A stretch of 64,000 nucleotides of DNA from Rheinheimera texasensis DSM 17496 (lineage in GTDB: Bacteria > Pseudomonadota > Gammaproteobacteria > Enterobacterales > Alteromonadaceae): positions 620,001 to 684,000 of the forward strand of contig NZ_JONU01000007.1 of NCBI RefSeq assembly GCF_000711985.1. The letters are read 5' to 3'. Below the pieces are notes generated by a model. It was given only the letters and a program-made list of their open reading frames with translations, was not told the origin of the DNA and made no database searches. Both the position numbers and the translations under genes were made by a program. Every line of letters starts with the position of its first letter. Position 1 is the first letter of the stretch. Shown here in pieces: positions 1,454 through 59,273 of the stretch.

Positions 1454-1478
1454 ATCTGGAAATAACGGTGACAATCTG

Positions 1479-1554
1479 TGGCGTCCCTTAGGGGATTCGA
1501 ACCCCTGTTACCGCCGTGAAAGGGCGGTGTCCTAGGCCTCTAGACGAAAGGGAC
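1479..1554 (-). tRNA. tRNA-Glu (TTC), copy 2 in transcription order
   Basis: This is the same 76-nt sequence as the flanking Glu copies (anticodon TTC, CCA encoded). It is separated from them by spacers of about 25 nt that differ in sequence, so this is a gene triplication whose spacers have diverged. Confidence 0.96.
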
Positions 1555-1578
1555 ACAGTAGACTGTCGAGCATATCAT

Positions 1579-1654
1579 TGGCGTCCCTTAGGGGATTCGA
1601 ACCCCTGTTACCGCCGTGAAAGGGCGGTGTCCTAGGCCTCTAGACGAAAGGGAC
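1579..1654 (-). tRNA. tRNA-Glu (TTC), copy 1 in transcription order
   Basis: This is the first of three identical tRNA-Glu genes on the minus strand, with anticodon TTC and encoded CCA. It lies 14 nt downstream of the promoter-proximal tRNA-Ala. Confidence 0.96.
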
Positions 1655-1668
1655 ACATACAGAAATCT

Positions 1669-11383: not shown

Positions 11384-11386
11384 TGT

Positions 11387-14009: not shown

Positions 14010-14014
14010 ACAAG

Positions 14015-15103: not shown

Positions 15104-15112
15104 GAAGTTGTT

Positions 15113-16999: not shown

Positions 17000-17011
17000 A
17001 GGAACTCAGTT

Positions 17012-18220
17012 GTGAAGGTTTTGCATATTTTTGACCATTCAATTCCGCTGCACAGTGGTTATACCTTTCGCAGCCGTTCGATTTTAAAAGAGCAGCGCGC
17101 GCTTGGCATTGAAACCTGTCATGTCACCAGCCCAAAGCAAGGTAATGCCACAGAGTCGGTTGATACTGTCGACGGCTTGACCTTTTACCGTTCGGCACAG
17201 CCAAAGGGTTTACTCAGTAAAATCCCTGGCCTCAATCAGCTGGCGTTGGTTGGCCCTATGACAGAGCGTATTCTCGCCGCCATCGACGCGGAAAAACCGG
17301 ATGTTCTGCATGCGCACTCGCCGGCATTGAATGGCCTTGCTGCATTGCGCGCCGCCAAAATCAGCGGGTTGCCGGTGGTTTATGAAATTCGCGCTTTCTG
17401 GGAAGACGCCGCCGTCGATCACGGCACCTGCAAAGAAGGTGATTTACGTTACACCTTAACCCGGCAACTGGAAAACTATGTGGTCAGCCGGGCCGATGCA
17501 GTGACCACTATTTGTGAAGGTCTGCGCTCAGATTTGGTCTCTCGCGGTTATGCCGCAGATAAATTCACCGTGATCCCAAATGCTGTCAATATTGAACAGT
17601 TTCAGCTCTGCGGCCCAAAAGACGCGGCACTGGAAGCCGAACTGGGCCTTGCCGGCTGTGAAGTGCTGGGCTTTCTTGGTTCTTTTTATGCCTACGAAGG
17701 CCTGGACCTGGCGGTGCGCGCTCTGGCAAAAGTGCATCAGCAGGCGCCACAGCTGCGGTTATTGTTAGTCGGCGGCGGTCCGCAGGAGCAGCAACTGAAA
17801 CAACTGGTAGAGCAGCTTGGCCTCAAAGACAAAGTGATTTTTACCGGTCGGGTGCCGCATGCCGATGTGGACCGTTATTACAGTCTGGTCGATTTGTTGT
17901 TGTATCCGCGTAAGTCAATGCGCCTGACGGATCTTGTCACCCCACTGAAGCCGCTGGAAGCCATGGCGCAGGGCAAGCTGGTATTGGCCTCCGACGTCGG
18001 TGGTCACAAAGAACTTATTCGCGATGGCGACAATGGTTATTTGTTTCCGGCCGATGATGTCGACGCGCTCGCAGCGAAGATGCTGCAGCTGTTAGCCGAC
18101 CGCGAGCAATGGCCACAAGTGCTGCAACGCGGCCGCGAGTACGTTGAAAACGTACGCAACTGGCGGGTCAGCGTCAGTCACTATCTGCCGTTGTATCTGC
18201 GGTTAACGGAGCGAAAATGA
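17012..18220 (+). CDS. XrtA-system glycosyltransferase 3 (GT4, TIGR04063)
   Basis: A 402-residue GT4 enzyme starting at GTG 17012 with AAGGA about 9 nt upstream. The N-terminal HIFDHSIPLHSGYTFRSRSI is the diagnostic opening of the third exosortase A glycosyltransferase. The C-terminal GRVPHADVDRYYSLVDLL and TPLKPLEAMAQGKLVLASDV form the sugar-nucleotide site. The stop overlaps the next ATG (ATGA). Confidence 0.92.
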   Translation: MKVLHIFDHSIPLHSGYTFRSRSILKEQRALGIETCHVTSPKQGNATESVDTVDGLTFYRSAQPKGLLSKIPGLNQLALVGPMTERILAAIDAEKPDVLHAHSPALNGLAALRAAKISGLPVVYEIRAFWEDAAVDHGTCKEGDLRYTLTRQLENYVVSRADAVTTICEGLRSDLVSRGYAADKFTVIPNAVNIEQFQLCGPKDAALEAELGLAGCEVLGFLGSFYAYEGLDLAVRALAKVHQQAPQLRLLLVGGGPQEQQLKQLVEQLGLKDKVIFTGRVPHADVDRYYSLVDLLLYPRKSMRLTDLVTPLKPLEAMAQGKLVLASDVGGHKELIRDGDNGYLFPADDVDALAAKMLQLLADREQWPQVLQRGREYVENVRNWRVSVSHYLPLYLRLTERK

Positions 18221-19305
18221 GCCTGAAGCAGCTGACAATTGTTGGGCCGCTGCCGCCACCTGCCGGCGGTATGGCCAATCAAACTGCCAAGCTGGCTGAA
18301 CTGCTGCGCGGTGAAGGCCTACAGGTTAACGTGATCCAGACCAACCCGCCTTACCAGCCGGCCTGGGTGGGTAAATTGCCGGTGCTGCGCGCCGGTGTAC
18401 GGTTATGGCAGTTCTTTCGCACACTGCAACGTGAGTTAACCCCACAGGTGCAGCTGATCCATTTGATGGCGAACTCCGGCTGGTCCTGGCATCTGTTTGC
18501 GGCTCCGGTGATCTGGGTGGCGCGACGCAAAAATATTCCGGTGGTGCTGAACTACCGGGGTGGTTATGCCGAAGCGTTTTTTGCAAAGTCCTGGTCTCGG
18601 GTCGAAGCATCCCTGCGCCACTGTGCGGTAATTTTGGTGCCCTCGACCTTTTTGCAGCAGGTGTTTGCCCGCTATGGCAAAGACAGCGTCATCGTGCAAA
18701 ACGTGCTGGATACTGAGCTGTTTGTGCCCGTAGCTACGACCGGCCGCGACACTGACGGTCCCCATGTTGTCGTCACGCGCAATCTGGAAGCCATTTATGA
18801 TGTCGCCAGCTGTATCCGCGCTTTTGCCGTCATTCAGCAGCAGTTTCCGGCTGCGCGGCTTAGCGTCGCAGGCACAGGCCCTGAGCTTGCTGCGCTGCAG
18901 CAGCTAGTCAGCGAATTACAGCTGAAAAACATAAACTTTGTTGGTCGTTTAACACCGCAGCAGGTTGCGGCACTCTATCAAGATGCCGATTTAATGTTAA
19001 ACGGCAGTCTGGTCGACAATACGCCCAATTCTTTAATCGAAGCCATGGCCAGTGGTGTTCCGGTGGTGTCAACTGACAGCGGCGGCATTCCTCAGCTGGT
19101 CACACACCAGAAAGATGCTTTGCTTGTTCCGGCCGGCCAGCCTGCTCAGCTCGCCAGCGCGGCATTAGCGGTGTTGCAGGATGCTGCGCTTAGGCAAAGT
19201 TTAATTGAAGCCGGTCTTGCCAACGCAGCCCGTTTCAGTTGGCATAAGGTCTGGGAATTGTTACAACAACAATATTCGCAAGTTTTGGCTCGGAGCACAC
19301 ACTGA
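18217..19305 (+). CDS. Glycosyltransferase family 4 protein
   Basis: A 362-residue GT-B enzyme. The N-terminal Gly/Pro loop VGPLPPPAGGMANQTAKL and C-terminal NGSLVDNTPNSLIEAMASG (GT4 E-x7-E region) are clear. It overlaps the previous stop (ATGA) and the next start (TGATG), so it is translated within the core operon. Donor and acceptor sugars cannot be told from sequence. Confidence 0.9.
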   Translation: MSLKQLTIVGPLPPPAGGMANQTAKLAELLRGEGLQVNVIQTNPPYQPAWVGKLPVLRAGVRLWQFFRTLQRELTPQVQLIHLMANSGWSWHLFAAPVIWVARRKNIPVVLNYRGGYAEAFFAKSWSRVEASLRHCAVILVPSTFLQQVFARYGKDSVIVQNVLDTELFVPVATTGRDTDGPHVVVTRNLEAIYDVASCIRAFAVIQQQFPAARLSVAGTGPELAALQQLVSELQLKNINFVGRLTPQQVAALYQDADLMLNGSLVDNTPNSLIEAMASGVPVVSTDSGGIPQLVTHQKDALLVPAGQPAQLASAALAVLQDAALRQSLIEAGLANAARFSWHKVWELLQQQYSQVLARSTH

Positions 19306-20660
19306 TGGCGAGTTCCTGGTACACCTGGCTGGTCAGCCGCTGCTTGTTTCCGCTGCATGAGCGGCTGAAAAAACATGACACTGTGGCCATTTTCCGCCAG
19401 CTTGAACAAAGTCAGTGGCAAAACCCACAGCAGATTGAAGCCGCACAGCAACAGCGTTTGCAGGCTTTTTTCCGCCGCATCAGCGCAGAAGTGCCCTACT
19501 ACCGTGATTTATTAACACGCCTTGGGCTGAAAGCTTCGGACATTCAAAGCCGTGCAGATTTGGTCAAGTTGCCGTTTTTAGACAAAGCGACTATCCGCGC
19601 CCACAGCGAAAGCCTGAAAAATCCGAAGGCAACTTTAGTGCGACCTTTTACCACCGGCGGCTCCAGCGGCACACCGCTGACGTTTTTGCTTGGCAACGAG
19701 CGCATCAGCCACGATGTGGCCGAAAAATGGCGTGCTACCCGCTGGTGGGGTGTCGATATCGGCGACAAAGAAATCGTCGCCTGGGGCTCACCGATTGAGC
19801 TGAATAAACAAGACAAAGTAAAAATCTGGCGCGACAAACTGTTCCGCTCGCATTTAATCCCAGCTTTTGACTTAACCGAAGCGAAAATTCTAGGGTTTAT
19901 TGACCAAATCCGTGCCATTCAGCCGGCCATGTTATTTGGTTATCCGTCGGTATTTCACCTGATTGCCAAAACGGCGCAGCAGCATCACATCGACCTGACC
20001 GGTCTTGGTATTAAAGTAGTGTTTGTCACTTCAGAGCGCTTATACCCCTATCAGCGTGAACTGATAGAACAAGTGTTCCGCGCACCAGTGGCCAATGGTT
20101 ATGGCGGCCGCGATGCCGGCTTTATCGCCCATCAGTGTCCGGCCGGCAGTATGCACCTGAGCGCCGAAGATATTATTGTCGAAATCATAGACCGCGATGG
20201 TAACCCGCTGCCACCAGGGCAAAGCGGTGAAATTGTTGTAACGCACCTCGCGACTTCCGATTTTCCATTTGTGCGCTACCGCACCGGCGATATCGCTGCG
20301 CTGTCAGACAAAGTCTGCAGCTGTGGCCGGGGCCTGCCGGTGCTGGAAAATATCGAAGGCCGCAGCACCGATTTTGTCGTGGCCAGCAACGGCACTATGA
20401 TGCATGGCCTGGCGCTGATTTATGTTATCCGCGAGCTGCATGGCATCAGCAACTTTAAGATTGTGCAGGAAAGTCTGACTCATACCCGGGTACAACTGGT
20501 GCTGGAAAACGGCGACGCGCCGGCGCTGGCTGATAAAGTCCGCCTCGGTTTAACTGCGCGTTTAGGTACCGATGTTGAGATTGAAATTGAATGGGTCGAC
20601 CAGATAGCCGCCGAGGCTTCAGGTAAATACCGCTATGTGATCAGTAAGGTAACTGCTTAA
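19305..20660 (+). CDS. Phenylacetate-CoA ligase / CapK-like adenylate-forming protein
   Basis: A 451-residue member of the PaaK/CapK branch of adenylate-forming enzymes. It shows the Ser/Gly-rich AMP loop TTGGSSGTPLTF (about 117-128), a Tyr-Gly-x-Arg-Asp region (NGYGGRDAGF), FVRYRTGDIAAL and a Cys-x-Cys-Gly-Arg-Gly zinc-like site. In capsule loci such proteins are thought to activate an acid for attachment to the sugar chain. The substrate is unknown. It overlaps its neighbours by 1 bp at both ends. Confidence 0.88.
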   Translation: MASSWYTWLVSRCLFPLHERLKKHDTVAIFRQLEQSQWQNPQQIEAAQQQRLQAFFRRISAEVPYYRDLLTRLGLKASDIQSRADLVKLPFLDKATIRAHSESLKNPKATLVRPFTTGGSSGTPLTFLLGNERISHDVAEKWRATRWWGVDIGDKEIVAWGSPIELNKQDKVKIWRDKLFRSHLIPAFDLTEAKILGFIDQIRAIQPAMLFGYPSVFHLIAKTAQQHHIDLTGLGIKVVFVTSERLYPYQRELIEQVFRAPVANGYGGRDAGFIAHQCPAGSMHLSAEDIIVEIIDRDGNPLPPGQSGEIVVTHLATSDFPFVRYRTGDIAALSDKVCSCGRGLPVLENIEGRSTDFVVASNGTMMHGLALIYVIRELHGISNFKIVQESLTHTRVQLVLENGDAPALADKVRLGLTARLGTDVEIEIEWVDQIAAEASGKYRYVISKVTA

Positions 20661-45055: not shown

Positions 45056-47812
45056 ATGAAAAAAACACTTCTGGTCAGCTGCATTCTGGCAGCATTAGTC
45101 ACACAAGGTTGTGGCAAAAAAGACGCTGCACAACATCTGCAAGACGCGCAGAATTTTATCAGTAAACAAGAATATCCGGCAGCAGTGATTGAACTGAAAT
45201 CGGCGCTGCAGCAGGAGCCGGAGAACGCCAAAGTCCGGCTGACATTAGGTCAGATTTATTTGCAAGTAGGTGACGGTCTGTCAGCCAGCAAAGAACTACA
45301 AAGAGCTAAAGAATTTGGCGCCGATTTGAACGAGCTGGCTCTACCAATGGCGCAGGCATTTTTTCTGGCCGGACAATTCCCCGAGTTGGCAAGTCTTGGC
45401 AAAGAAACCGGGCTGACCCCACTCAATCAGGATTACATCCGGTTGTATCAGGCACTATCAGCCATTGAAGCATCAGAAGCGGCCGACGCAAAAGCTGAAC
45501 TGCAATCCTTGTCGACAAATAATGATGCCGGTATCAAAGCTATGGCATCAGCACAACTGCAGATTATGGACCGTAAACACGATACTGCGCTGGTTGCACT
45601 AAACGACATTCCCTCAGATAACCCTTTGTTCCGCGAAGGTTTACTATTAAAAGCAAAACTACAAAATATTCTGGCGCAGTTTGATGCTTCAGTTGCCAGC
45701 TTTCAGCAATACCTCAAACTGAATCCGTCTGGCCACCAGGCTCGTCTGTTGTTAGCTCAGACTTTTGTCGCGCAGAACAAATTTCCTGAAGCCAGCGCTG
45801 AGCTCGATAAATTACTGAAACTTTTCCCGAAACAACCACTGGCTAACTATCTGAAGTCAGTCATTGCATTTGAGGCGAAAGATTTCCAAAAAGCGAAGGA
45901 ATACAGTGAAACAGCCATCAATTCAGGTCTTAGTTCGGTCAGCACCAGGGTGATGGCAGCGCTTGCAGCCTCCCAATTGGGTTTGTCCAATCAAGCGTTG
46001 AATCATTTGCAGGCAGTACGCGGTGAACTGCACAGTTACCCGCCGGCACAGAAACTATATATTGCGCTGCAGCTACAAAGCGGTAATACCGACGTCGCTC
46101 AGCAGCAAATCCTGAAAAATGAATCGGCTTCCAATGACGTGCAACTGGTGACAGCCACAGCATTTCAGTTATTGAAACAACGCGCCAATGGCGCCGCCGA
46201 AGAGCTGATAAATAAATACGAAGCAGGTGGAGAGGAAAAATCTGGACAAGACCTGATTGCCATTGGTTCTATCAAACTTGGGATCCCAGGTCAGGAAGCG
46301 CAGGGTCTGCAACTATTGGAGCAAGCTGCAAAGCTAGCGCCTAAAGAGCAACAACCCAAGTTACTACTGGCTTCAGCTTATCTGCAACAACGTAAATTCA
46401 AGGAAGCTGAAGCCCTAGCCAGTGAATGGTTAAATGACGAAGCGATGAAAGTTCAGGGTCTGAATATGCTGGCTTTCATTGCACTGCAACAAGAGCAAGA
46501 TGATAAAGCGCTGAAGTACATTGCAGATGCTGTAGCAGCGAACAGCGATTTACCATTTACCTATCTGTTGAAAGCGGTATCGGAGCAGGCCAAGCAAGAC
46601 TCTGCAGCAGCCAAGGCTACTTTGACGACACTGCTGGACAAACATCCGGCCTATTTGCCGGCATTAGAGCAGTTTTATTCCCTGACCCGCGAAGAGGCTG
46701 ACGGCCCTGCGCTTAAACGTACTGAAACTTTATACAAATCTGACACTTCAAATTACAACGTGGCGGTTTTGTTCGCCCGCATGCTGGTTGATCAGAAAAA
46801 ACAAGAACAAGCATTGCAGGTATTGGAAGAGGGCAAACAACCTGTTGCTGAACGTCATGCCTTGCACTGGGCCTTGTTGATTGAACATGAGCGGGTGACT
46901 AATAAAGATATTAAAAAGTCTTTGGCTGTCGCTGAGCAGTGGTACCAGCTGAACTCGGCAGAACGCGAATCTGTTTACAGCTATATCCGTTCGCTGATTT
47001 TGGATAAACAAATTGAAAAAGCTTTGGCTGTATCCACCGAAGAGTTAAAAAAATCGCCAGACGACAAAGTGTTGTTCGGCACTCAGGTACAGTTATTGGC
47101 AGAAAATGGTAAACACGCTGAAGCATTAAAGCTATTGGCAACCTTGCCAGCTGAAGACGCCGGTAAAGCCGATGTACAATTTATCAAAGGTCGCATTTTA
47201 TTGGCAGATAACAAGCCGAAAGAAGCTCTTGTTGCACTGAACGAAAGCTATCAGCAAAGCCAGTCTACGATGGCGGCCCTGATGATTGCCGATACTTACG
47301 AGCGCGCCGGGGACCTTGATAAAGCTAAGCAGTTTGTTGAACAGCACTTTACTACTAAACCGAATGACGGACCGTTACAGCTGTTCTATGCCAATTTATT
47401 ACTGAAAAGCGATAAGGAAAAGTCTATTGAGGTGTTCAGTCAGTTGCTGGCTAAAGAACCGGACAACGTGGCAGTACTAAATAATCTGGCCTGGACCTTA
47501 CTGGAAACTAATAAATTAACTGAAGCAACAACTCATATCGAAAAGGCCATGACACTGGCTCCACGTAATCCGGACGTATTGGATACTTATGGTGCCGTTC
47601 TGCTTGCATCAGGAAAAGTCGACCAGGCAATCCAACGTTTAGAGGATTCACTGAAAGTCCGGCCAGATCATCCATCAGTCTTACTGAATTACGCTGATGC
47701 CCTGATCAAAAAAGGTGAGAAAGACAAGGCAAAAGCCATTTTAGACAAGATCACTGGTGATAAGTCTATTTCGGCGGCACAAGTAAACGCATTGAAAGCC
47801 AAATTGAACTAA
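45056..47812 (+). CDS. prsT: PEP-CTERM system TPR-repeat lipoprotein
   Basis: A 918-residue lipoprotein. Its signal peptide ends in a lipobox-like TQGC (Cys19) and is followed by more than 15 TPR-type helical pairs, for example YPAAVIELKSALQQEPENAK near 40, and VAVLNNLAWTLLETNKLTEA followed by PRNPDVLDTYGAVLLASGKV near the C-terminus. It matches PrsT (TIGR02917), which co-occurs with PrsK/PrsR in XrtA genomes and is thought to scaffold export or sorting in the periplasm. Its length is usual for the family. A clear terminator follows. Confidence 0.94.
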   Translation: MKKTLLVSCILAALVTQGCGKKDAAQHLQDAQNFISKQEYPAAVIELKSALQQEPENAKVRLTLGQIYLQVGDGLSASKELQRAKEFGADLNELALPMAQAFFLAGQFPELASLGKETGLTPLNQDYIRLYQALSAIEASEAADAKAELQSLSTNNDAGIKAMASAQLQIMDRKHDTALVALNDIPSDNPLFREGLLLKAKLQNILAQFDASVASFQQYLKLNPSGHQARLLLAQTFVAQNKFPEASAELDKLLKLFPKQPLANYLKSVIAFEAKDFQKAKEYSETAINSGLSSVSTRVMAALAASQLGLSNQALNHLQAVRGELHSYPPAQKLYIALQLQSGNTDVAQQQILKNESASNDVQLVTATAFQLLKQRANGAAEELINKYEAGGEEKSGQDLIAIGSIKLGIPGQEAQGLQLLEQAAKLAPKEQQPKLLLASAYLQQRKFKEAEALASEWLNDEAMKVQGLNMLAFIALQQEQDDKALKYIADAVAANSDLPFTYLLKAVSEQAKQDSAAAKATLTTLLDKHPAYLPALEQFYSLTREEADGPALKRTETLYKSDTSNYNVAVLFARMLVDQKKQEQALQVLEEGKQPVAERHALHWALLIEHERVTNKDIKKSLAVAEQWYQLNSAERESVYSYIRSLILDKQIEKALAVSTEELKKSPDDKVLFGTQVQLLAENGKHAEALKLLATLPAEDAGKADVQFIKGRILLADNKPKEALVALNESYQQSQSTMAALMIADTYERAGDLDKAKQFVEQHFTTKPNDGPLQLFYANLLLKSDKEKSIEVFSQLLAKEPDNVAVLNNLAWTLLETNKLTEATTHIEKAMTLAPRNPDVLDTYGAVLLASGKVDQAIQRLEDSLKVRPDHPSVLLNYADALIKKGEKDKAKAILDKITGDKSISAAQVNALKAKLN

Positions 47813-47860: not shown

Positions 47861-48263
47861 TGGCAATGCTTGCGCTTACAGTCTTTAACACTTTTCTCTC
47901 TTAGTGGGGTATTTGTCAGGGCCTTTGTCGTATTAACCAAAACATCAAGTAATTTGATGAGCAGCCCCATTTACGTGTGCGCAGCTATACTTTTATTCAA
48001 ACATCTTGCCAACCTTCGCTATGCAGACATCTGACATGGCGCCACTCGCGTAGAGCAAAAACCTCTGGCCAGAAAAGACTGCAGGATTCTACGGGAGCAC
48101 TCATCCGTAGTGGTAAATCAGGCATGCAATTAAAACAGAGCGAAACCCCAAACACACTTTGCGGTGACACAACTCACCAATTGAAGCACGGCACAGGTGC
48201 AGGTGCAGGTGCAGGTGCAGGTGCAGGTGAAAAAGATTCCAGTAGACCTGAGATTTCAAACAT
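47861..48263. other. Non-coding gap between prsT and the PEP-CTERM gene
   Basis: I see no convincing gene here. The only long frame (47977-48318, plus) has no ribosome site, unusual composition and runs through the terminator of the opposite gene. Within the gap are a small inverted repeat CTACGG/CCGTAG (48089-48110) and a hexamer tandem repeat (48195-48229). It could be decayed sequence. Confidence 0.5.
48195..48229. repeat. Hexanucleotide tandem repeat (AGGTGC)n
   Basis: Five perfect AGGTGC units (48195-48224) are followed by a sixth imperfect one. It lies about 35 bp outside the terminator of the PEP-CTERM gene. Such short tandem tracts can change length by slippage. Confidence 0.9.
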
Positions 48264-48318: not shown

Positions 48319-49146
48319 TTACTGTTTGTTGCGGCGACGCAAACCTAACATAATCAGTGACAGACCTAACATACCTACTGTAGCTGGCGCAGAAACTTTT
48401 GACATAGTCAGTTGTGCTAACAGTTCCAGCTGGTTAACTGTACCTTCGGTGGTAACCAGTACGATAGAACCATCTGGGTTTACGACTGACTGAGTTACAC
48501 CTGACAGTGGGTTCAGTTTGAAAGAGATAGTGTATTGTTCTTTGCCTTCTGGGCCTGCTACAACGAATTTAATCGCTGGCAGATTCAGTTTAATCAGGAA
48601 TGTATCATCACAACCAGTGCCAGACAGTTGTGGAATTGGGCAGTTCGCCGGGTTAGAAGTGTTTGGCGTTTCATTGAACTGAATGCCAACTGTCGCTGCT
48701 TTAGAACCAACTGGTGGGTTCACCAGTGTGAACAGAGTTTCCAGATCTAACTTATACAGTGAACGCGAACCAGCCAGAATTGTTTTGTTTGAGTGGGTGA
48801 TTAAACCGGTTTGAACCCAATCACCGTTAGTAACCAGAGTACCAGCCTGAGAAACGATATTTAAACCGCTTTTTGCGTTTGATGAGCCCCAGGTCACTGT
48901 ATCATAGGCGTTTGGCAGACCAGCCGCACCAGTGAAAGTTAAACCACAGCCGTTTGCAGCATCTGTCGTGCCAGCAGCACAGTCAAACACAGTGCCATTA
49001 GCTTGTTTGCTTGAAGAATTTACACCGTCAGCTAACCAGCCAGACTGAGTTGCAAAGTCCATTGCAGGGATGATTGCTGCTTGTGCAGAACCAATAAACG
49101 TCGCGATTGACAGAGCGCTTACTGATAAAAGAGTTTTGAATTTCAT
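48319..49146 (-). CDS. Secreted protein with variant PEP-CTERM sorting signal
   Basis: A 275-residue secreted protein. A Sec signal peptide occupies 1-23 (cleavage after SAQA) and the mature region is Thr/Asn/Gly/Ser-rich and beta-like, with two Cys pairs. The C-terminal tripartite tail is a short motif SAPAT (about 252-256) where most systems have VPEP, then a TM stretch VGMLGLSLIMLGL, then RRRNK. This layout is the exosortase substrate signal, and it is the only one in the window. It should be cut and anchored by the exosortase at 12585. AAGGTGG precedes the ATG and a sigma-54 promoter lies upstream. The biological role of the mature part is unknown. Confidence 0.88.
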   Translation of the reverse strand: MKFKTLLSVSALSIATFIGSAQAAIIPAMDFATQSGWLADGVNSSSKQANGTVFDCAAGTTDAANGCGLTFTGAAGLPNAYDTVTWGSSNAKSGLNIVSQAGTLVTNGDWVQTGLITHSNKTILAGSRSLYKLDLETLFTLVNPPVGSKAATVGIQFNETPNTSNPANCPIPQLSGTGCDDTFLIKLNLPAIKFVVAGPEGKEQYTISFKLNPLSGVTQSVVNPDGSIVLVTTEGTVNQLELLAQLTMSKVSAPATVGMLGLSLIMLGLRRRNKQ

Positions 49147-49219
49147 TTTACTACCACCTTGTATTATTAACTGCCTTACCAGTGACTGTCAGGCTAAAAC
49201 TACTACTGACAAATACAAA

Positions 49220-49234
49220 GCAAATCATGTGCCA
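49220..49234 (-). promoter_or_regulatory. Sigma-54 promoter (-24/-12) of the PEP-CTERM gene
   Basis: On the minus strand TGGCAC (49234-49229), a 5-nt spacer and TTGC (49223-49220) match the -24/-12 consensus, with GG and GC exactly 10 nt apart. Transcription would start near 49208, giving an about 60-nt leader before the ATG at 49146. The response regulator PrsR in this window is a sigma-54 activator and is the obvious candidate to act here. Confidence 0.88.
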
Positions 49235-49290: not shown

Positions 49291-50949
49291 TCACTCTGTA
49301 AATTTTTTTGACGGTTCCGCGATATAACGACCCGGTGACAAAATTCCTTTTGGATCTAACGCCTGTTTCAAATCGTCCAGAACACTCAGATAGGTGGTGT
49401 CACCAAAGCGAGTCATCTCTGCCATTTTGTTTACATCGGTACGATATGGATAGAAGCCTTTTTCAAACATTGTCTGATAAAGCTGGTCCCGGCATTGTAC
49501 CGCCTGCTCATCCCAGGATTTCCCATTTGGCGCTATCGCGGCCCTATCAAAGGAAATACTAACGACTGCGTCGATACAACGCTCATTTAGCAGAGTCAGA
49601 GTCACGGCGGGCTCAAAGCCATAAGCCGGCAGAACCTGCTCGACTATTTTCATCAACTCTCTGGCGTTGTGCGGGTCTGCCGGAGCGACAAAAGCGCTCC
49701 AGATTAAACCGACACCATCCTTATCCATATCAAACTGACCATCCGGCGCTTGCTTCATCCGCCAGTAAGAACTGGTTAGAAACTGCGCGCTAGGCTGCCC
49801 TTTCATCATGTCATGCACGGGTCTTAACACCTTCAACATGCCAGGCAGATCCATTCTGGTTACAAAGGCGATTGGCTTTTGAAAAATCTCAATGAACCGC
49901 AGGAGTTCATCGCTGATAAAGTTCAGGCGCGCACCTTTGACCTGTTTGAGCGCTTTGCGGACCTGTGTTCTGGCGTTAGCAACTTGTTCCTTGGTGCCAT
50001 ATAAAGCGCCCGAGACATTCCAGGTCCCGACTTGCCATTGTTTTTTAAGTTGTTCTGCGAACCCACCAGGTAAAGGATATTGAATTGCCCCAGAGCCAAA
50101 TAGCGGCCAGGGATACTGTTGCATCCCACCTAACACCCGGAAGGCATTGGCGATGTGAGGCAGACTGGTGATTACTCCGCTTCGCTTTAACGGCACCAGT
50201 GCCGCAACAATTTGTTCAAGAGCGTCTTCACTGGCGGCAGACAGGTAAAATGCCACAAACTTTTCAGGTTTCGGCATCAGCCAGAGAGTCATACTCAGCA
50301 CGATGCCAAGGTTCGATTGCAAAAACAGCTGATCCAGCGCCGGTCCCAGCCCCCACTTATACATGCCACTGGCTTTTGCCCCAGGGAAACGACCAAAACC
50401 AGTTTTGATGACCCTGCCGTCTGCCAGCAGAACCTCCATAGATCCGATAAAATTCGCGTGTTCGCCATAGGGAGTATGACCAAAGCCTCGCTCTACAGTA
50501 TTACCGACAATACTGCAATCCGGATGTGACCCTGTACAATCCATCCAGTCAATGTCGCCCTGCGCTTTGAGGAAGTCAGCGAGCTGGCGTTGAGTAACCC
50601 CGGCACCGACGGTGACCAGATGATGCGCCGGGTCGTAATCAGAGATCTCGCTCAGCCGCCGCAAGTCCAACAACACGGCGCTTTTTGAACTTGGCACGCG
50701 CGAGCCGTACCCCCAGTTTTTGCCCGAACTAATGGTGTAAAGCGGGATCCCATGTTCCCGGGCAAGAGCGACCGTCGCAGCGACCTGCTTTTTAGCTGGT
50801 CGTAATATAGCGAGGATAGACGAATGGGTGGGCAAAGTCGCAACACCAGCAAGATCCAGACTTTGCTTGTCGGTAACAACATATTCATCACCGAGTAAAA
50901 GCTGCCACTGTCTAATTGCGGCGCTGATATCAATCTGTTCTGCATTCAT
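49291..50949 (-). CDS. FAD-binding oxidoreductase (PCMH/vanillyl-alcohol oxidase-like)
   Basis: A 552-residue flavoenzyme with a PCMH FAD-binding domain in the N-terminal half (ILRPAKKQVAATVALAREHG, ISSGKNWGYGSRVP, SIVGNTVERGFGHTPYGEH) and a cap domain after it, as in 4-cresol dehydrogenase and vanillyl-alcohol oxidase. No signal peptide is seen. AAGGAG lies 6 nt before the ATG. An intrinsic terminator sits just upstream between this gene and the acyltransferase, so it needs read-through or its own promoter. In this locus it may oxidise an alcohol or phenol linked to the acyl product; that is inference. Confidence 0.86.
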   Translation of the reverse strand: MNAEQIDISAAIRQWQLLLGDEYVVTDKQSLDLAGVATLPTHSSILAILRPAKKQVAATVALAREHGIPLYTISSGKNWGYGSRVPSSKSAVLLDLRRLSEISDYDPAHHLVTVGAGVTQRQLADFLKAQGDIDWMDCTGSHPDCSIVGNTVERGFGHTPYGEHANFIGSMEVLLADGRVIKTGFGRFPGAKASGMYKWGLGPALDQLFLQSNLGIVLSMTLWLMPKPEKFVAFYLSAASEDALEQIVAALVPLKRSGVITSLPHIANAFRVLGGMQQYPWPLFGSGAIQYPLPGGFAEQLKKQWQVGTWNVSGALYGTKEQVANARTQVRKALKQVKGARLNFISDELLRFIEIFQKPIAFVTRMDLPGMLKVLRPVHDMMKGQPSAQFLTSSYWRMKQAPDGQFDMDKDGVGLIWSAFVAPADPHNARELMKIVEQVLPAYGFEPAVTLTLLNERCIDAVVSISFDRAAIAPNGKSWDEQAVQCRDQLYQTMFEKGFYPYRTDVNKMAEMTRFGDTTYLSVLDDLKQALDPKGILSPGRYIAEPSKKFTE

Positions 50950-52032: not shown

Positions 52033-52060
52033 AGTATAGAAAATGCAGACGCTATGACAA
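52033..52060 (-). promoter_or_regulatory. Candidate sigma-70 promoter of the acyltransferase gene
   Basis: TTGTCA (52060-52055) and TATACT (52038-52033) on the minus strand are 16 nt apart. They lie about 140 nt upstream of the acyltransferase start and overlap the last codons of the patatin-like gene. Confidence 0.5.
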
Positions 52061-52933
52061 TCCAAAACACCGTTCTCTTTGATTTGCACCAAGCTCTGTG
52101 CAAATCCAGCCGAGTTTGTGTGGAATCACCTGCATCGTTGTATCATAGCCTTGTCGCAAAAGTTCCTCTTTTTTCCCCACCGACAGCCCGAAATCCACCG
52201 ACGAAACATCGCCGGTGTTTATTAGCACCGTGTTATGCCAATATTGAGCATGTACGTACTCACGCGACATAGCGTTCATAAATGTTTGAATTAACATGAG
52301 AATATATGAAACTAACGGAAATAGTCTACGTCTGCTGATCGGTTTATCTTCACCTTCGCTTTTCAGCCGGAAGCAAACTACCGGCACATTGCGCCCGGAC
52401 CAATCCTGATGCAATGCATCTTCGGCCAGAATGACGCCATCAGCCATAACATGATTCTCGAAAGTCTTAAACGAAAAAAGTAACGGAATCGACATTGAAT
52501 ACCGTACTGCTTCAGACACCTTCATCTGAGGAGTCCGGGCTTTGTTAAACACAACCGGGCCACCGCCGTTAATATCAGTTGCCAGTACGTGTAAATCCAG
52601 TACCAAATCACAGAAGCGCGCGCCAGCCAGCTGATCGTCCATCCAGCGTTCGAAATTATCACCACTGGACAAGCCGCCTGTGCGAATTAAGTTCATCAAA
52701 GAGAAGCCACGAAACTGTTTAAAATCGGTGTGCAGCGCGAGGTCCTTCATTTGGTCAATCGATTTGCCGGCAGCAACCATGGCCGCAACAATACTGCCAC
52801 CAGACACCCCGACCAGACTGCGAAAATCCAGATTAAGGTCATTCAGAGCTTTTAGTATCCCGACATAACAAGGCAGTCTGGTCCCGCCGCCGGAAAAAAT
52901 CGGCACTATTTCATGTGATTGCAGTTGTGTCAT
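52052..52933 (-). CDS. Patatin-like phospholipase family protein
   Basis: A 293-residue patatin-domain protein. The oxyanion loop FSGGGTRLPCYVG is near the N-terminus, the nucleophile elbow GVSGGS (Ser) about 35 residues later, and the dyad Asp in VMADGVI. These are the catalytic Ser-Asp dyad and glycine-rich loop of patatins, so lipid acyl hydrolase activity is expected. The open frame extends far upstream on paper, but that part is antisense to the protease gene. ATG 52933 is the natural start; ATG 52957 is possible. It may feed acyl chains to the neighbouring acyltransferase. Confidence 0.88.
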   Translation of the reverse strand: MTQLQSHEIVPIFSGGGTRLPCYVGILKALNDLNLDFRSLVGVSGGSIVAAMVAAGKSIDQMKDLALHTDFKQFRGFSLMNLIRTGGLSSGDNFERWMDDQLAGARFCDLVLDLHVLATDINGGGPVVFNKARTPQMKVSEAVRYSMSIPLLFSFKTFENHVMADGVILAEDALHQDWSGRNVPVVCFRLKSEGEDKPISRRRLFPLVSYILMLIQTFMNAMSREYVHAQYWHNTVLINTGDVSSVDFGLSVGKKEELLRQGYDTTMQVIPHKLGWICTELGANQRERCFGLS

Positions 52934-53045
52934 ACTGGCCACCAAGACATCGCGCATCTGCCACTGAACTGAGAGTTTCAGTATGTACCAATTTGATAAA
53001 GATGCTAATTCGATTTTAGTCCAGTATGGATTGAGCCTGCCACTG

Positions 53046-53822
53046 ATGGAACTTTCAAAACACAGCCGTTGGGTTATATTAGTTAAACTATTGATACTAA
53101 ATATGTTTATACCAACCCACGCAGCAAACGACCTACCTGCTTTAATTGCTAAGGTAAAACCTTCTGTAGTCGCAATTGCTTTGTATAATCCAACCGCAGC
53201 CCCACGCTTAAAACTGCTGGGATCAGGTTTTGTTACTGGGCCCGGTAACTTAGTGGTGACGAATTTCCACGTGGTTAGTACCCCGGCAGACATTACCAAG
53301 AACGAAGCTTATGTTGTGTTATCGGGCCATGGTCAACAACCACGCATCCATCCGATTAAACAAACACGCACAGATGCCAGGCATGATCTGGCTGTGCTCG
53401 AAATTGATGAGAAGCTGCCACCAGTCAAATTAGCTGAGGCCGTATACATCGCCGAGGGAACCGAACTGGCATTTACCGGCTATCCGATCACCGGCGTCCT
53501 AGGACTATACCCTGCAACACACCGGGCGTTGCTAAGCGCTGTCACACCTATAGTCATCCCGGCGGATCATAGCCAGGCCTTGAGCGCAGCGAGCTTGCGT
53601 CAAATGCGGGATCCCTTTTTGATTTATCAGTTGGACGGCACCGCATATCCGGGTAACAGCGGTAGCATGTTGTATCGCCAGGACAATGGTGAAGTAGTTG
53701 GTATTATCAACATGGTGTTGATTAAAAAGTCAAAAGAAGCAGTGTTAAGTGATCCCAGTGGCATTTCATATGCGATCCCGGTAAAACACCTGCATCAGCT
53801 GTTGCAACAAATCCAACCTTAA
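53046..53822 (+). CDS. Periplasmic trypsin-like serine protease
   Basis: From ATG 53046 the product has about 258 residues, with a signal peptide (basic SKHSR, hydrophobic core, cleavage near THAA). The S1-type catalytic triad is visible as His in TNFHVV, Asp in RHDLAVL and Ser in YPGNSGS. A single protease domain without PDZ is seen, unlike DegP/DegS. The ATG at 52983 would add 21 residues in front of the signal peptide and is less likely. It lies 9 bp before prsK, so it is probably co-transcribed and may process or sense envelope proteins of the system. Confidence 0.87.
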   Translation: MELSKHSRWVILVKLLILNMFIPTHAANDLPALIAKVKPSVVAIALYNPTAAPRLKLLGSGFVTGPGNLVVTNFHVVSTPADITKNEAYVVLSGHGQQPRIHPIKQTRTDARHDLAVLEIDEKLPPVKLAEAVYIAEGTELAFTGYPITGVLGLYPATHRALLSAVTPIVIPADHSQALSAASLRQMRDPFLIYQLDGTAYPGNSGSMLYRQDNGEVVGIINMVLIKKSKEAVLSDPSGISYAIPVKHLHQLLQQIQP

Positions 53823-53831
53823 GGCCGTGTT

Positions 53832-55856
53832 ATGCTTATTGAATTGTCTCCGGGTCAAACCGGATTTCTACTCGCTGCGCTCGGTTATTTGCTGTTCTTT
53901 GCTCTGCAACTGACTGTTCGCAATAAGACCTCACAAAAATCGTTATTGTCGGCTTTTACGCTGTTTTCGGTATTTTGGGCAATTTTCAACGGTACTAGCC
54001 AACAACTGACCTTTGTGTCAGACACTTCTTTTGCTATTGAAACGATTCAAAAATCTTTTCTGCTGATGTTTCTGCTCTCTGCACTAAGCAAGACAGATAT
54101 TCCACTGCGCCAATGGTTTGCAGTTAAAAAAGTTCGCCTGACACTTGGCATTCTGCTCAGCTGGTTATTGTTTGGAAGTTTTGTGATTAATACAGCAGGA
54201 TTGCGTCTGATGGGGACTTTATTGCTGGTGATCACCATGCTGGCAATGGTCGAAACCTTGTACCGGCAATCCGGCGCGCAAAAGTGGCAGTTTAAACCGT
54301 TGATTATCGCTATCGGTATTTGCCTGCTGCTTGATTTCTACTTGCTCGCCGAGGCGGCTCTTCTGAGCAAAATTAACCAGCAAACTTGGCAAGCGCGTGG
54401 TTTTATCCATTTATTTATGCTGCCGTTTTTGGTGGTCGCGGTAAAACGGGTGAAGTCCTGGGGCATTAACGTCTATGTGTCCAGAGATATAGTTCTGCAA
54501 AGTTCTTTGGTATTGGCTGCAGGAATCTATCTTTGCTTGCTGGCGGTTGTTGGCTATTACCTGAGTTATATCGGCGGCAACTGGACAACTTTGTTGCAGG
54601 TGGTGTTTGTCGTAATTGGTTCCGCAGTGCTTGGTACTTTGTTTTTTTCCGATGGTTTGCGCCGCAAAGGCCGGGTCTTTATTGAAAAACACTTTTTTGC
54701 TAACACCTTTGATTATCGGGAAAAATGGGTTGAATTAACCCGCGAATTGAAACAAATTGAGTTTGCTCGGGAAAATACCGCGCAAGTCTGTCTGAATGCC
54801 TGGTGTCGCGCAATCGGCTACAGTCATGGTGTTCTGGTGAAATTACAACATGACCAGTTTCAACCATTGGCAAGCAAGGGCCAACTTACATTTGCTGAAA
54901 CCGAACAAAAGGCCTTGTCACTTGTGGCCGCTGAACAGAAAAACAAGCAGTGGCTGCTAGACTTCAGTGACAGAAAAGATCCTGTCGTCGCCAAACTCAG
55001 TAACGTGATGGAGAATCAAGTTCCTTCTTTTAGTATCTTGATCCCCATTCTGAAGAATAACCAGCTTTGGGGTTTTTGCCTGCTGCATTGCATGGTGAAT
55101 GAAAAATTACGGCTAAACTGGGAATTACGTGATTATCTCAATGCCGTTACCGAACAAATCGCCAGCTATCTGTTTATGGATGAAGCCAGTAAAGCGTTGT
55201 CTGAGAACGCGCAGTTTGTCGCGTTTAGCCGGATGTCTGCATTTGTCGTCCATGATTTAAAGAATGTAAAGGCGCAAATCGATATGCTGTTGAAAAATGC
55301 GCAAAAACACCGGCACAACCCCGAATTCGTCGACGATGCTTTTTCTACCATTGAAGCGATGCAGAGCCGATTACAAAATATGCTGGCGCAGCTCACCAAC
55401 AAACAAAGCGGTCAGGAACATATCAAAAAAACTGCCATCGCAGCGCTACTTGAAGCATTAATCAAAGAGCGTTGCAGCGGCACCCTGCCTAAGCCGGTAT
55501 TGGTGATAAATTCTGACTGCCAGCTGACAATAGATGCTGAGCGCTTTGCGAATGTATTGTACCACTTGATTGATAACGCCCAGCAGGCGACGGCGGACGA
55601 CGGCCGTGTTGAAGTCTCAGCGCATTGCGAGCAACAACATCTTTGTATCAAAATTACAGATACAGGCTGTGGCATGAGCCAGGAGTTTATCCAAAACCGC
55701 CTGTTTAAACCCTTTGATACGACAAAAGGCAATGCAGGCATGGGGATAGGCGCTTATGATGCACTGACTTTTGTCCAGCAGCTGCAAGGACAGTTGCTCG
55801 TCGATAGCGAGGTTGACCAAGGGACTACCTTTACTATTTTGCTTCCTTTACACTAA
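53832..55856 (+). CDS. prsK: PEP-CTERM system sensor histidine kinase
   Basis: A 674-residue membrane kinase. About seven to eight N-terminal TM helices (to about 280) are followed by a GAF-like cytosolic domain (about 300-450), an H-box with His474 in FVVHDLKN, and a HATPase domain with N-box DNAQQA, G1 DTGCGMS and G2 GMGIGAYDA. The His-Asp-Leu-Lys-Asn H-box and length fit PrsK (TIGR02916). The input is unknown. It should phosphorylate PrsR, encoded 28 bp downstream. Confidence 0.95.
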   Translation: MLIELSPGQTGFLLAALGYLLFFALQLTVRNKTSQKSLLSAFTLFSVFWAIFNGTSQQLTFVSDTSFAIETIQKSFLLMFLLSALSKTDIPLRQWFAVKKVRLTLGILLSWLLFGSFVINTAGLRLMGTLLLVITMLAMVETLYRQSGAQKWQFKPLIIAIGICLLLDFYLLAEAALLSKINQQTWQARGFIHLFMLPFLVVAVKRVKSWGINVYVSRDIVLQSSLVLAAGIYLCLLAVVGYYLSYIGGNWTTLLQVVFVVIGSAVLGTLFFSDGLRRKGRVFIEKHFFANTFDYREKWVELTRELKQIEFARENTAQVCLNAWCRAIGYSHGVLVKLQHDQFQPLASKGQLTFAETEQKALSLVAAEQKNKQWLLDFSDRKDPVVAKLSNVMENQVPSFSILIPILKNNQLWGFCLLHCMVNEKLRLNWELRDYLNAVTEQIASYLFMDEASKALSENAQFVAFSRMSAFVVHDLKNVKAQIDMLLKNAQKHRHNPEFVDDAFSTIEAMQSRLQNMLAQLTNKQSGQEHIKKTAIAALLEALIKERCSGTLPKPVLVINSDCQLTIDAERFANVLYHLIDNAQQATADDGRVEVSAHCEQQHLCIKITDTGCGMSQEFIQNRLFKPFDTTKGNAGMGIGAYDALTFVQQLQGQLLVDSEVDQGTTFTILLPLH

Positions 55857-55884
55857 TCCATCTTACTGATACACGGAATGTTGT

Positions 55885-57273
55885 ATGAAAACATTACTCG
55901 CGATTGATGACGACCTTGGCATACAGAAGCAGCTCAAATGGAGTCTGACTGATTATGAAGTAGTATTTGCTGAGGACCGCGCTTCGGCTTTACAGCAATT
56001 ACGTCGCTACGAACCAGCAGTGGTGACGCTTGATCTTGGTCTTCCGCCTGATCCAACCAATGCATCTGAGGGGTTAGCTTGCCTGACCGAGATCCTGCAG
56101 CATAACCCAAACACCAAAGTGATAGTGATCACTGGCAGCACTGACACTGAACACGCCTTACAGGCCATTTCACTCGGTGCCTACGACTACTATCAAAAAC
56201 CAATCGATGTTGACGTACTGAATGTGATTGTCGCCCGCGCATTCAAACTGAGCGACATTGAAACGGAAAATCGAGTACTCAAAGCCACCGCATATAAACA
56301 GCAAGACATTATCGGTAACAGTGAATCGATCCAAAAAGCCTGCCGGATGGTCGAAAAGATTGCGCCAACTGAAATTACCACGCTTTTGCTCGGTGAATCC
56401 GGCACCGGTAAAGAAGTGTTCGCCCGTGCTATTCATAAACAAAGCCCCCGTGCGGATAAACCTTTTGTCGCGATTAACTGTGCTTCAATCCCCGACAACC
56501 TGCTCGAAAGTGAGTTGTTCGGCTACGAAAAAGGCGCCTTTACTGGTGCGCATAAAACCACGTTAGGCAAAATCGAAACCGCAAATGGCGGTACGCTGAT
56601 GCTTGACGAGATAGGTGATATGCCGTTGGCGCTACAAGCCAAAATGCTACGGTTTCTGCAGGAGCGCGTCATTGAAAGAGTCGGCGGTCGTTCGGAGATT
56701 GAAGTTGATGTTCGCGTCATATGCGCCACGCACCGCAATCTGGCAGAAATGGTTGCAGAACAAAGCTTCCGCGAAGATTTGTTTTATCGGGTCAGTGAAA
56801 TCACACTTAACATCCCCCCGTTACGAAATCGGGGCCACGATATTGTGATTATCGCTAAGTCCTTGCTGCATCGGTTTAATGCCGAATTTAATACAAATAT
56901 TCAAGGTTTTACTGAAGATGCCATCAACGCAATGCTTGGGCATCGTTGGCCTGGCAACATCCGCGAGCTGCAAAACAAACTTAAGTCCGCTGTAATTCTT
57001 GCTGATACGAAATTTATCAGCGCAGAAGATCTTGGCCTTGTCGCATCGAATCAATCCAATACTTTGCCGACATTACGCAAAGTCCGTGAACAAGCTGAGA
57101 CACAAGCCATTCGTCATGCGTTTAACGTTGCAAACGGCAACTTGTCGAAAACTGCAGATTTACTCGGCGTGACACGTCCCACTCTCTACTCGTTGATAGA
57201 CAAGTACAAAATGCTGGATTTAAGGCCACAGGATAACGAACAGCCTGGAACTGCAATCGCAGAAGAACAGTGA
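55885..57273 (+). CDS. prsR: PEP-CTERM system sigma-54-dependent response regulator
   Basis: A 462-residue NtrC-type activator. The receiver domain has acidic Asp8-10, phospho-acceptor Asp50 in VVTLDLGLPPDP and Lys in YYQKPID. The AAA domain has Walker A GESGTGKE (about 170-177) and the sigma-54 contact loop GAFTGA (about 217-222). The C-terminal Fis-type HTH reads NLSKTADLLGVTRPTLY. It matches PrsR (TIGR02915), which works with PrsK to switch on sorted proteins and possibly polymer genes. The canonical -24/-12 promoter at 49220-49234 is a ready target in this window. Confidence 0.95.
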   Translation: MKTLLAIDDDLGIQKQLKWSLTDYEVVFAEDRASALQQLRRYEPAVVTLDLGLPPDPTNASEGLACLTEILQHNPNTKVIVITGSTDTEHALQAISLGAYDYYQKPIDVDVLNVIVARAFKLSDIETENRVLKATAYKQQDIIGNSESIQKACRMVEKIAPTEITTLLLGESGTGKEVFARAIHKQSPRADKPFVAINCASIPDNLLESELFGYEKGAFTGAHKTTLGKIETANGGTLMLDEIGDMPLALQAKMLRFLQERVIERVGGRSEIEVDVRVICATHRNLAEMVAEQSFREDLFYRVSEITLNIPPLRNRGHDIVIIAKSLLHRFNAEFNTNIQGFTEDAINAMLGHRWPGNIRELQNKLKSAVILADTKFISAEDLGLVASNQSNTLPTLRKVREQAETQAIRHAFNVANGNLSKTADLLGVTRPTLYSLIDKYKMLDLRPQDNEQPGTAIAEEQ

Positions 57274-57293
57274 CATAGTTCTGATACAAAAAC

Positions 57294-57320
57294 AGCCAGC
57301 ATTCAGTGCTGGCTTTTTTC
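57294..57320 (+). terminator. Rho-independent terminator after prsR
   Basis: AGCCAGCA TTCAG TGCTGGCT is a perfect 8-bp stem followed by a T-run, 20 nt after the stop codon of prsR. Confidence 0.93.
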
Positions 57321-57351
57321 TGCCAATAAATCAGCGCTGATCTGATGGCAT

Positions 57352-57375
57352 AAAAAAACCCGCCAAACGGCGGGT
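57352..57375 (-). terminator. Rho-independent terminator of the TonB2-type operon
   Basis: On the minus strand GACCCGCC GTTT GGCGGG is followed by seven T, 20 nt beyond the last gene (TPR protein) of the operon. Confidence 0.92.
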
Positions 57376-57393
57376 CTTTTAAAAGGTTTGAGC

Positions 57394-58650
57394 TTAGAGC
57401 TTGATGCCTTTCTTCTCAGCGCGTTCTTTCACGTATGGGCCCCATGAGTTAGCCATCTTTTCCTGTCCATGCTGGCGAGCCAGCAGTACATGTTGATAGG
57501 CTTCACGCATTTTGCCTTGATAGAAATAAGCACCGATCAGAGAAACGTGCACTTTACCTTTGTCTTTGGTACCGACTTCTAAAGCTTTTTGTAACGCGGT
57601 AGCTGCTTCAGCGTTTTTATTCGCCATCGCCAGTGCATCACCCTGACGACGATATGCATCACCGTCATTTTCTTTAGCACCTAACATACCGTAGAACTTA
57701 GCCGCTTTTTCGAATTCGCGGGCCGAAGAGTATGAACTGGCAATACTCATCAGGATGGCGCGGTCATTCTTCAACAAACCAGCAGTCAAGTGTTTTTCCA
57801 GCAGCGCAGCGGCTTTGTATGGCACGTTGTTGTTGTTGTACAGGTTAGCGAGCAGCTTGATCTCGTTTTCTGTCTTCAACAAACCCTGTTTGTAAGCCAT
57901 ATCGATAATCGCTAATGCTTTATCATATTGCTCATCCACAGAGTAAAACTGGCCTAACATCACCCAAGATTGCTTCTCATTTGGGAATATTGGCAACATA
58001 GTTTCCAATACTTCAATCGCTTTCTTGGTCTGCTTCAGCTCGTAGTATGAAGCGAACTTCATTTGGTACGGTTCTTTCTTCGGCGTCTTCGAGTGTTCGA
58101 TCGCACGATCAGCCGGTGCAATAACTTTGGCATACTGCTTCATTTCGTAGTACGCGTTAGCAATACGCAAATCAACGTTTGCGTCCGTCTCACCGGTGAA
58201 ATCTGACCACTTGTTGTAGTAAGTGATCGCCTGCTCGTACTTCTTCGCCATCAGACTTAAATCGCCGATGTTGCGCAGCAGAGTCGCCTGGTCAGTAAAA
58301 CCCAGCACATCAGGCTGAACCGCTTTAATCATATAACTCAATGACTTAGCTGGATCTTTCTCGATGTACAGCTGGCCGATAAATTTATCTAAATAAGCTT
58401 TATCGAAGGTATTTGACGCTTCGATTGGCTCCAATAATGCCAGTGCTTCACCGACTTTATTTTGGCCGTACAGCTCATAAGCTTTACCGATTGCTTTACC
58501 AACTTTTTCGCCGACAGCCTGCGATTTCCGAGCTTTACGCTCAGCAATCTTAGCCGCGTCCGGAGCTGCGAACGCTGAGCTCACCGGCAGAGCGGCGACG
58601 CCCACTGCAGCAAACACCATCAACGCAGATGTAAGTTTGTTAAATTTCAT
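57394..58650 (-). CDS. TPR protein of the TonB2-type operon
   Basis: A 418-residue periplasmic protein with signal peptide (cleavage near SAFAA) and about eight to ten TPR-like repeats, for instance EALALLEPIEASNTFDKAY, and KAIEVLETMLPIFPNEKQS near the middle. It is the last gene of the DUF3450-TtpC-ExbB-ExbD-TonB-TPR operon seen in Alteromonadales, and starts 2 bp after tonB. The role is probably support of energy transduction to outer-membrane receptors; it is not defined. Confidence 0.87.
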   Translation of the reverse strand: MKFNKLTSALMVFAAVGVAALPVSSAFAAPDAAKIAERKARKSQAVGEKVGKAIGKAYELYGQNKVGEALALLEPIEASNTFDKAYLDKFIGQLYIEKDPAKSLSYMIKAVQPDVLGFTDQATLLRNIGDLSLMAKKYEQAITYYNKWSDFTGETDANVDLRIANAYYEMKQYAKVIAPADRAIEHSKTPKKEPYQMKFASYYELKQTKKAIEVLETMLPIFPNEKQSWVMLGQFYSVDEQYDKALAIIDMAYKQGLLKTENEIKLLANLYNNNNVPYKAAALLEKHLTAGLLKNDRAILMSIASSYSSAREFEKAAKFYGMLGAKENDGDAYRRQGDALAMANKNAEAATALQKALEVGTKDKGKVHVSLIGAYFYQGKMREAYQHVLLARQHGQEKMANSWGPYVKERAEKKGIKL

Positions 58651-58652
58651 AC

Positions 58653-59273
58653 TTAACCTCCGGCATTATCAAGGTTGAAGTCTAACTGCACCATGATCCC
58701 GGTTTGCTTCAACGCCTGACCGTTTTCAATTTTTGGTGAGTACTTCCAACGTTTTAATGCACGAATTGCTTCGCGGTCAAACACCCGCTTCGGCTCAGCA
58801 TCAACAACTTCAATTTCATCTACAGAGCCATCCGGCATGATAGAGAAACGCATTTTTACCCAACCATTGATACCGTCACGAGCAGCCTGTACAGGATACT
58901 TCGGTTCGATACGAACGATTGGTGTTGCGTCACCATCACGCATCATGGCACCTGCCGGGTCACCGATACCACCGCTGACTCCGCCAACATCTACTGTCGG
59001 GGCGTTAAAGCCGATAGCACCTGTGTCCGTATTACTCGCTTCCTGAACCACTTGTTGCTTTGGTGGCTCTGGCGGCGGTGGTGGTGGCGGTGGCGGTACC
59101 CGAGTCCGGGTCTGAGCTTTAGACTCAGGCGGCGTCGAGTTTATCTCAATAACGATTTGTTCCTTTGCGACATTGGAGACAGCGTCATCGCTGTCTACCA
59201 GGAATGCCATCAATACAAACAGGAAAAACGTTATTACCGCACCAATTAAGAGTGAAAGTAATAACCGGGCCAT
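58653..59273 (-). CDS. tonB: Energy transducer TonB (TonB2 type)
   Basis: A 206-residue protein. An N-terminal TM anchor (ARLLLSLLIGAVITFFLF) precedes a periplasmic proline run of nine Pro followed by EPPKQQ, then the C-terminal TonB domain (WVKMRFSIMPDGSVDEIEV, EAIRALKRWKYSP). ATG 59273 follows the exbD stop after one base (TAATATG); the longer frame to 59306 adds an Arg-rich tail within exbD and is rejected. It carries ion-motive force to outer-membrane transporters. Confidence 0.94.
   Translation of the reverse strand: MARLLLSLLIGAVITFFLFVLMAFLVDSDDAVSNVAKEQIVIEINSTPPESKAQTRTRVPPPPPPPPPEPPKQQVVQEASNTDTGAIGFNAPTVDVGGVSGGIGDPAGAMMRDGDATPIVRIEPKYPVQAARDGINGWVKMRFSIMPDGSVDEIEVVDAEPKRVFDREAIRALKRWKYSPKIENGQALKQTGIMVQLDFNLDNAGG

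Follow-up and report, generated by a model that had tools for sequence, protein, structure and literature searches.

A THxN-family PEP-CTERM gene of Rheinheimera texasensis, its two-part control region and its predicted place in the exosortase A regulon

The gene, its control region and the surrounding locus

The 64-kb stretch of Rheinheimera texasensis DNA analysed here, referred to as the window, carries a large XrtA locus. Besides exosortase A, the window encodes an EpsB2-type transferase, a deacetylase, a FemAB-like protein, glycosyltransferases, an amidotransferase, an exosortase-associated acyltransferase, an XrtA-associated ATPase and an O-ligase. The features that concern the substrate gene are the following, in window positions.

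12585-14009, plus strand: exosortase A (XrtA); TIGR03109, 314.9 bits, cut-off 208
45056-47812, plus strand: PrsT TPR lipoprotein, convergent with the substrate gene; TIGR02917, 445.8 bits, cut-off 312.2
48319-49146, minus strand: THxN-family PEP-CTERM protein gene; ORF of 275 aa with a T-H-S-N motif and a C-terminal sorting tail
48322-48396, minus strand: tail codons, tail VSAPATVGMLGLSLIMLGLRRRNKQ, V-S-A-P in V-P-E-P register
49220-49234, minus strand: sigma-54 -24/-12 element, motif 2 in Haft 2006, reading TGGCACATGATTTGC; GG and GC 10 nt apart, distance to the ATG 73 nt
49297-49313, minus strand: PrsR-type box, motif 1 in Haft 2006, reading CGTCAAAAAAATTTACA; precedes motif 2 by 62 nt
49291-50949, minus strand: FAD-linked oxidase-like gene, upstream in tandem, whose 3' end holds the PrsR box; PF01565, 87.5 bits, cut-off 26.4
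53832-55856, plus strand: PrsK sensor kinase; TIGR02916, 551.6 bits, cut-off 300
55885-57273, plus strand: PrsR, PEP-CTERM-box response regulator of the sigma-54 activator type; TIGR02915, 699.7 bits, cut-off 502.6

Over its whole length the protein encoded at 48319-49146 fits NF038125, the model for THxN-family PEP-CTERM proteins, with 162.9 bits against a cut-off of 85 and no marked difference from the family, and it also passes the choice-of-anchor K model (NF038131; 36 bits, cut-off 30). The N terminus, MKFKTLLSVSALSIATFIGSAQA, looks like a signal peptide when judged by eye. The C terminus consists of a sorting motif, a transmembrane segment and a basic cluster, and reaches 17.8 bits with the PEP-CTERM model TIGR02595, whose curated cut-off is 16; the Pfam PEP-CTERM model PF07589 stays under its cut-off (11.6 versus 20.7 bits). 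The product is predicted to be an ordinary matrix protein sorted to the surface, in a bacterium of the Rheinheimera type. Literature searches retrieved no work pairing PEP-CTERM with THxN and none on PEP-CTERM in Rheinheimera.

Cys, Arg and His are present in XrtA in the stretches EACSG, NCLRAF and DHFVYGW. It is the single TIGR04178 match in the genome and its sole exosortase match, and is therefore the likely enzyme for the VSAP tail; a second exosortase serving the variant tail is ruled out by the same count. RpoN is present in the genome. Between prsT and the substrate gene, CAGGTG stands in six perfect copies (48194-48229).

The sigma-54 element is the only exact match to TGGCAC-N5-TTGC within the window. 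Chance alone would supply 0.47 matches per window, with at least one in 38 of 100 shuffles, so the hexamers by themselves are weak evidence. When TTTACA is also required 46-76 nt upstream, the expectation falls to 0.01 per window (1 of 100 shuffles), for a pattern that was written after the site had been seen, from the published motif and spacing. In the part of the founding paper drawn on here (PMC1569441), motif 1 is 17 nt long, ends in TTTACA and precedes the sigma-54 motif 2 by a mean of 62.8 nt (SD 10.6); motif 2 in turn precedes the start codon by a mean of 71 nt (SD 38.5). The two-part element precedes 99 of 167 proteobacterial PEP-CTERM genes, and the abstract names PrsR as the activator matching it. 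At the present locus motif 1, with its TTTACA end, precedes motif 2 by 62 nt, within the range of 32-92 nt, and motif 2 lies 73 nt before the ATG; this comparison covers the TTTACA end and the spacing, with distances taken from a 15-nt core where the paper used the 17-nt motif. Since both spacings fit the published averages, the predicted regulation is of the textbook kind. The position of the box departs from that source, in whose portion used here additional sites are said never to lie within coding regions: here motif 1 falls within the final codons of the FAD-oxidase-like gene, directly ahead of its stop (49294-49313). At three further loci (L044, L045 and L047) the box also stands, by eye, at the end of apparently the same gene, overlapping the stop codon in L044 and L045.

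Strong relatives of the substrate gene occur in three of the 21 other genomes of the genus, namely two copies in G018 (86 and 82%) and those in G013 and G004 (60%). In all four copies the box and the sigma-54 element are retained, 61-63 nt apart and with 1-3 mismatches in total, and a similar sigma-54 element lies 69-73 nt before the start in the orthologues.

A preliminary description of this DNA had reported the sigma-54 element, with 10 nt from GG to GC, about 75 bp before the ATG, a SAPAT tail with a transmembrane segment and RRR in place of VPEP, XrtA at 12585, and PrsK and PrsR. All of these stand, with the distance now 73 nt and the tail as VSAPATVGMLGLSLIMLGLRRRNKQ. The other half of the control region, the PrsR-type box, was missed. 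That PrsK/PrsR together with sigma-54 drive the gene, as was then proposed, is well supported by the box at the published spacing, its conservation in orthologues and the joint occurrence of PrsR and PEP-CTERM matches in 10 of 22 genomes. Such control had already been set out in general form in 2006, and the sequence comparison confirms the two-part promoter rule in Rheinheimera.

The sorting tail in the genus

Residues 251-274 of the protein align to positions 1-24 of the TIGR02595 profile. Since V251 falls on profile position 1, V-S-A-P stands on V-P-E-P, and this placement rules out a separate Ala-Pro-Ala motif. A literal Pro-Glu-Pro is typical, though not required by TIGR02595; this tail has Ser-Ala-Pro in its place, and the curated model accepts it. 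In an alignment of seven sequences, the orthologues show VSAP, VPAP or IPEP in the columns of V251-S252-A253-P254, and all seven share P254.

Across 22 genomes of the genus, TIGR02595 gives 73 matches at E<=0.3. Tails were counted in 72 of them, leaving out the match in G020:C597, which lies within a 1994-aa frame; some of these 72 rows are mutual orthologues and hence not independent events. At the same threshold the model finds matches in one of 14 control genomes. The commonest 4-mer is VSAP, with 17 rows spread over seven genomes, followed by VPAP (14), VPEP (11), VSEP (7), IPEP (4) and others. Ala occupies the third position in 37 of the 72 rows and Glu in 25, while the last Pro is kept in 69. 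Literal PEP occurs in 15 of the 72, a count that favours it because the rows were picked up by TIGR02595. Together with the exchange of VSAP, VPAP and IPEP among orthologues, these counts make the present tail a normal drifted PEP.

It follows that the preliminary description, largely right in what it observed, was mostly wrong in its framing. The tail is hardly the unusual variant it was taken for. The gene is not the sole PEP-CTERM substrate, as eight TIGR02595 matches exceed the cut-off in its genome. The absence of any other genomic protein with a SAPAT tail had been named as evidence against the proposal, but VSAPAT occurs in eight of the 72 rows from five genomes, two of them from the genome of the substrate gene, so this objection does not apply. 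The suggestion that XrtA accepts an Ala-Pro-Ala version of the motif is likely to be right as regards the enzyme, XrtA being the only exosortase match, and fails as regards the motif, which is V-S-A-P in register.

By these counts the PEP motif is loose in the genus, a point that can help annotators to find substrates missed by searches for literal PEP. The odds are about even that exosortase A in this genus reads V-[PS]-[EA]-P, that only the last proline is needed and that 'PEP' is not the recognition core. With 69 of 72 rows keeping the last Pro and 25 of 72 having Glu in third place, the last Pro is the suggested first target for mutation in exosortase assays.

Distribution of the promoter module

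Within the genome of the substrate gene, TIGR02595 gives eight matches over the cut-off. Relaxing the threshold to E<=10 yields 14, and 12 of these look plausible by eye in both start and tail; in control genomes the model gives matches at E<=10 in 12 of 14 and over the cut-off in two of 14. A genome-wide scan for TGGCAC-N5-TTGC returns 18 exact sites against five in a reversed control. Only two of them are found a short way ahead of PEP-CTERM genes, and the hexamers alone are not a specific marker. The composite TTTACA-N46-76-TGGC-N7-TTGC has seven sites in the genome against two in the control, and two of the seven are at PEP-CTERM genes. For the strict box YGTCA-N6-TTTACA the numbers are 12 and five: six of the 12 boxes lie upstream of ORFs with PEP-CTERM tails, at 95-167 nt from the start of the box to the first possible start codon, and the remaining six include sites within coding frames.

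With up to two mismatches allowed per part, parts 32-92 nt apart and gene starts taken as the first ATG, the two-part module is found upstream of 46 of the 72 PEP-CTERM matches of the genus and is absent from 26, the mean over 20 shuffled sets being 0.1 of 72. Because the box consensus was drawn from the genome under study, its own rows (5 of 8) are partly circular, which leaves 41 of 64 in the other genomes. Sorted by tail type, the module accompanies 13 of 17 SAP, 11 of 15 PEP, five of seven SEP and eight of 16 PAP rows. Among the 47 ORFs tested of the 51 listed for the window, only the gene at 48319-49146 has it. PrsR exceeds its cut-off in 10 of the 22 genomes, the same ten that have PEP-CTERM matches, and XrtA is found in eight of these ten.

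The promoter may also find substrates that the tail model misses. At L060 (G000:C5:963455-963471:+), one of the six boxes upstream of PEP-CTERM-tailed ORFs, a PrsR box is followed 62 nt on by a sigma-54 site with two mismatches, ahead of a protein ending in VSTPGSMSLFGIATLLLAGGIRSRQRQQR, a VSTP tail, which TIGR02595 at E<=10 did not report in this genome. Two other boxes have no sigma-54 site in range. One, at L058 (G000:C5:542158-542174:-), has a NAPAS-tailed gene on one side and, on the other, an S8 subtilase of 1071 aa with no PEP-type tail by eye. The other, on contig C6 of the same genome, precedes the gene at L067 954-4082(-), whose LTD/endonuclease product carries a dockerin at its C terminus (PF00404, 25.7 bits, cut-off 22.9). 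Downstream of it, a VPAP-tailed protein has a cohesin match below the cut-off (PF00963, 17.5 versus 24.1 bits), and the two are possibly a cohesin-dockerin pair held through the exosortase system.

Interpretation, alternatives and relatives with no exosortase match

The gene at 48319-49146 is best read, with a probability of roughly 0.9, as one more ordinary gene of the PEP-CTERM/exosortase A regulon. Its family, both promoter elements at the published spacing together with their conservation, the single exosortase match and the interchange of VSAP, VPAP and IPEP are the observations behind this reading. PrsK would phosphorylate PrsR, which would bind the box at 49297-49313 and activate the sigma-54 RNA polymerase at 49220-49234. 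After export of the product by Sec, its tail would anchor it in the inner membrane. XrtA would then cut this tail at or next to V-S-A-P, and the cut protein would either be set free into the exopolysaccharide matrix that the surrounding cluster produces or become attached to it.

Two published systems can be set beside it. With the PEP-CTERM/EpsH (XrtA) system of Haft 2006, as presented in the part used here (PMC1569441), the window shares exosortase A, the EPS cluster, PrsK, PrsR, PrsT, the order of motif, transmembrane segment and basic residues in the tail, motif 1 ending in TTTACA, the sigma-54 motif 2 and both spacings; the tail differs, V-P-E-P there and V-S-A-P here. Aquincola tertiaricarbonis RN12, a different host, likewise has a PEP-CTERM gene, pepA, adjoining prsT and preceded by an RpoN-type promoter, although prsT is downstream there and convergent here. 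According to the part of that study drawn on here (PMC9850573), pepA transcription requires RpoN1 and its start site has been mapped, with TGGCAC/CTGCTT as -24/-12, whereas regulation at the present locus is predicted. Floc formation in the Aquincola prsK mutant was not restored by plasmid-borne prsK or prsK-prsR in the same portion of that study, so the PrsR link there is unproved by experiment.

The tail might instead have drifted into a mere membrane anchor, with PrsR still switching the gene on and XrtA no longer cutting the product. The founding paper terms PEP highly conserved (PMC1569441, in the part drawn on here), the tail scores close to the model cut-off (17.8 versus 16), and the pair of copies in G018, one with VSAP and one with VPAP, indicates a loose constraint on the position. 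Against this, VSAP is the commonest 4-mer among the genus rows counted (17 of 72, seven genomes) and the module is as frequent at SAP genes (13 of 17) as at PEP genes (11 of 15), which makes decay unlikely. Less probable again is service of the sigma-54 site by an activator other than PrsR. With the PrsR model the genome does give eight hits at E<=1e-100, of which one, PrsR, passes the cut-off, so about seven related regulators exist, and its 18 exact TGGCAC-N5-TTGC sites exceed the five of the reversed control; but the motif 1 box lies at the published spacing and is conserved in orthologues, and PrsR over the cut-off and PEP-CTERM matches share the same ten of 22 genomes. A chance match at the sigma-54 site is very improbable: 0.47 exact matches are expected per window, yet only 0.01 for the composite, and the orthologues carry a similar element at nearly the same distance.

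Two relatives count against so simple a picture. G009 and G020 have PEP-CTERM matches and PrsR and show no exosortase by TIGR03109 or TIGR04178; these two suggest that the tail need not always be cut. A search of both with the XrtA protein at E<=10 also gave no match, an empty answer which, run without a positive control, shows nothing by itself. The cause is not visible in G020 because its PrsR contig is only 6.2 kb long. In G009 the cause is apparent: about 50.0 kb, the XrtA/EPS block with the substrate gene, is missing. Positions 1-2322 of the window align at 89% up to position 13520 of L145 (G009:C65:60000-79999, of which 11200-20000 were compared), and positions 52341-58825 align in two pieces, at 79-80%, from position 13520 onward; the junction cuts the ATPase (2032-3093) and patatin-like (52052-53299) genes. 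The gap is either a natural loss of exosortase with the regulon left in place or a misassembly. G009 retains PrsK/PrsR and six TIGR02595 matches at E<=0.3; a VSAPAT gene there (L094) has a mismatch-free box and sigma-54 site. As a natural deletion strain that has lost about 50 kb yet retains this regulator pair and its PEP-CTERM genes, it would be well suited to showing how substrates behave when they are left uncut. Window positions 1378-1657, where the XrtA block has its edge, hold 2.8 tandem copies of a 100-bp unit that is tRNA-Glu-like by eye.
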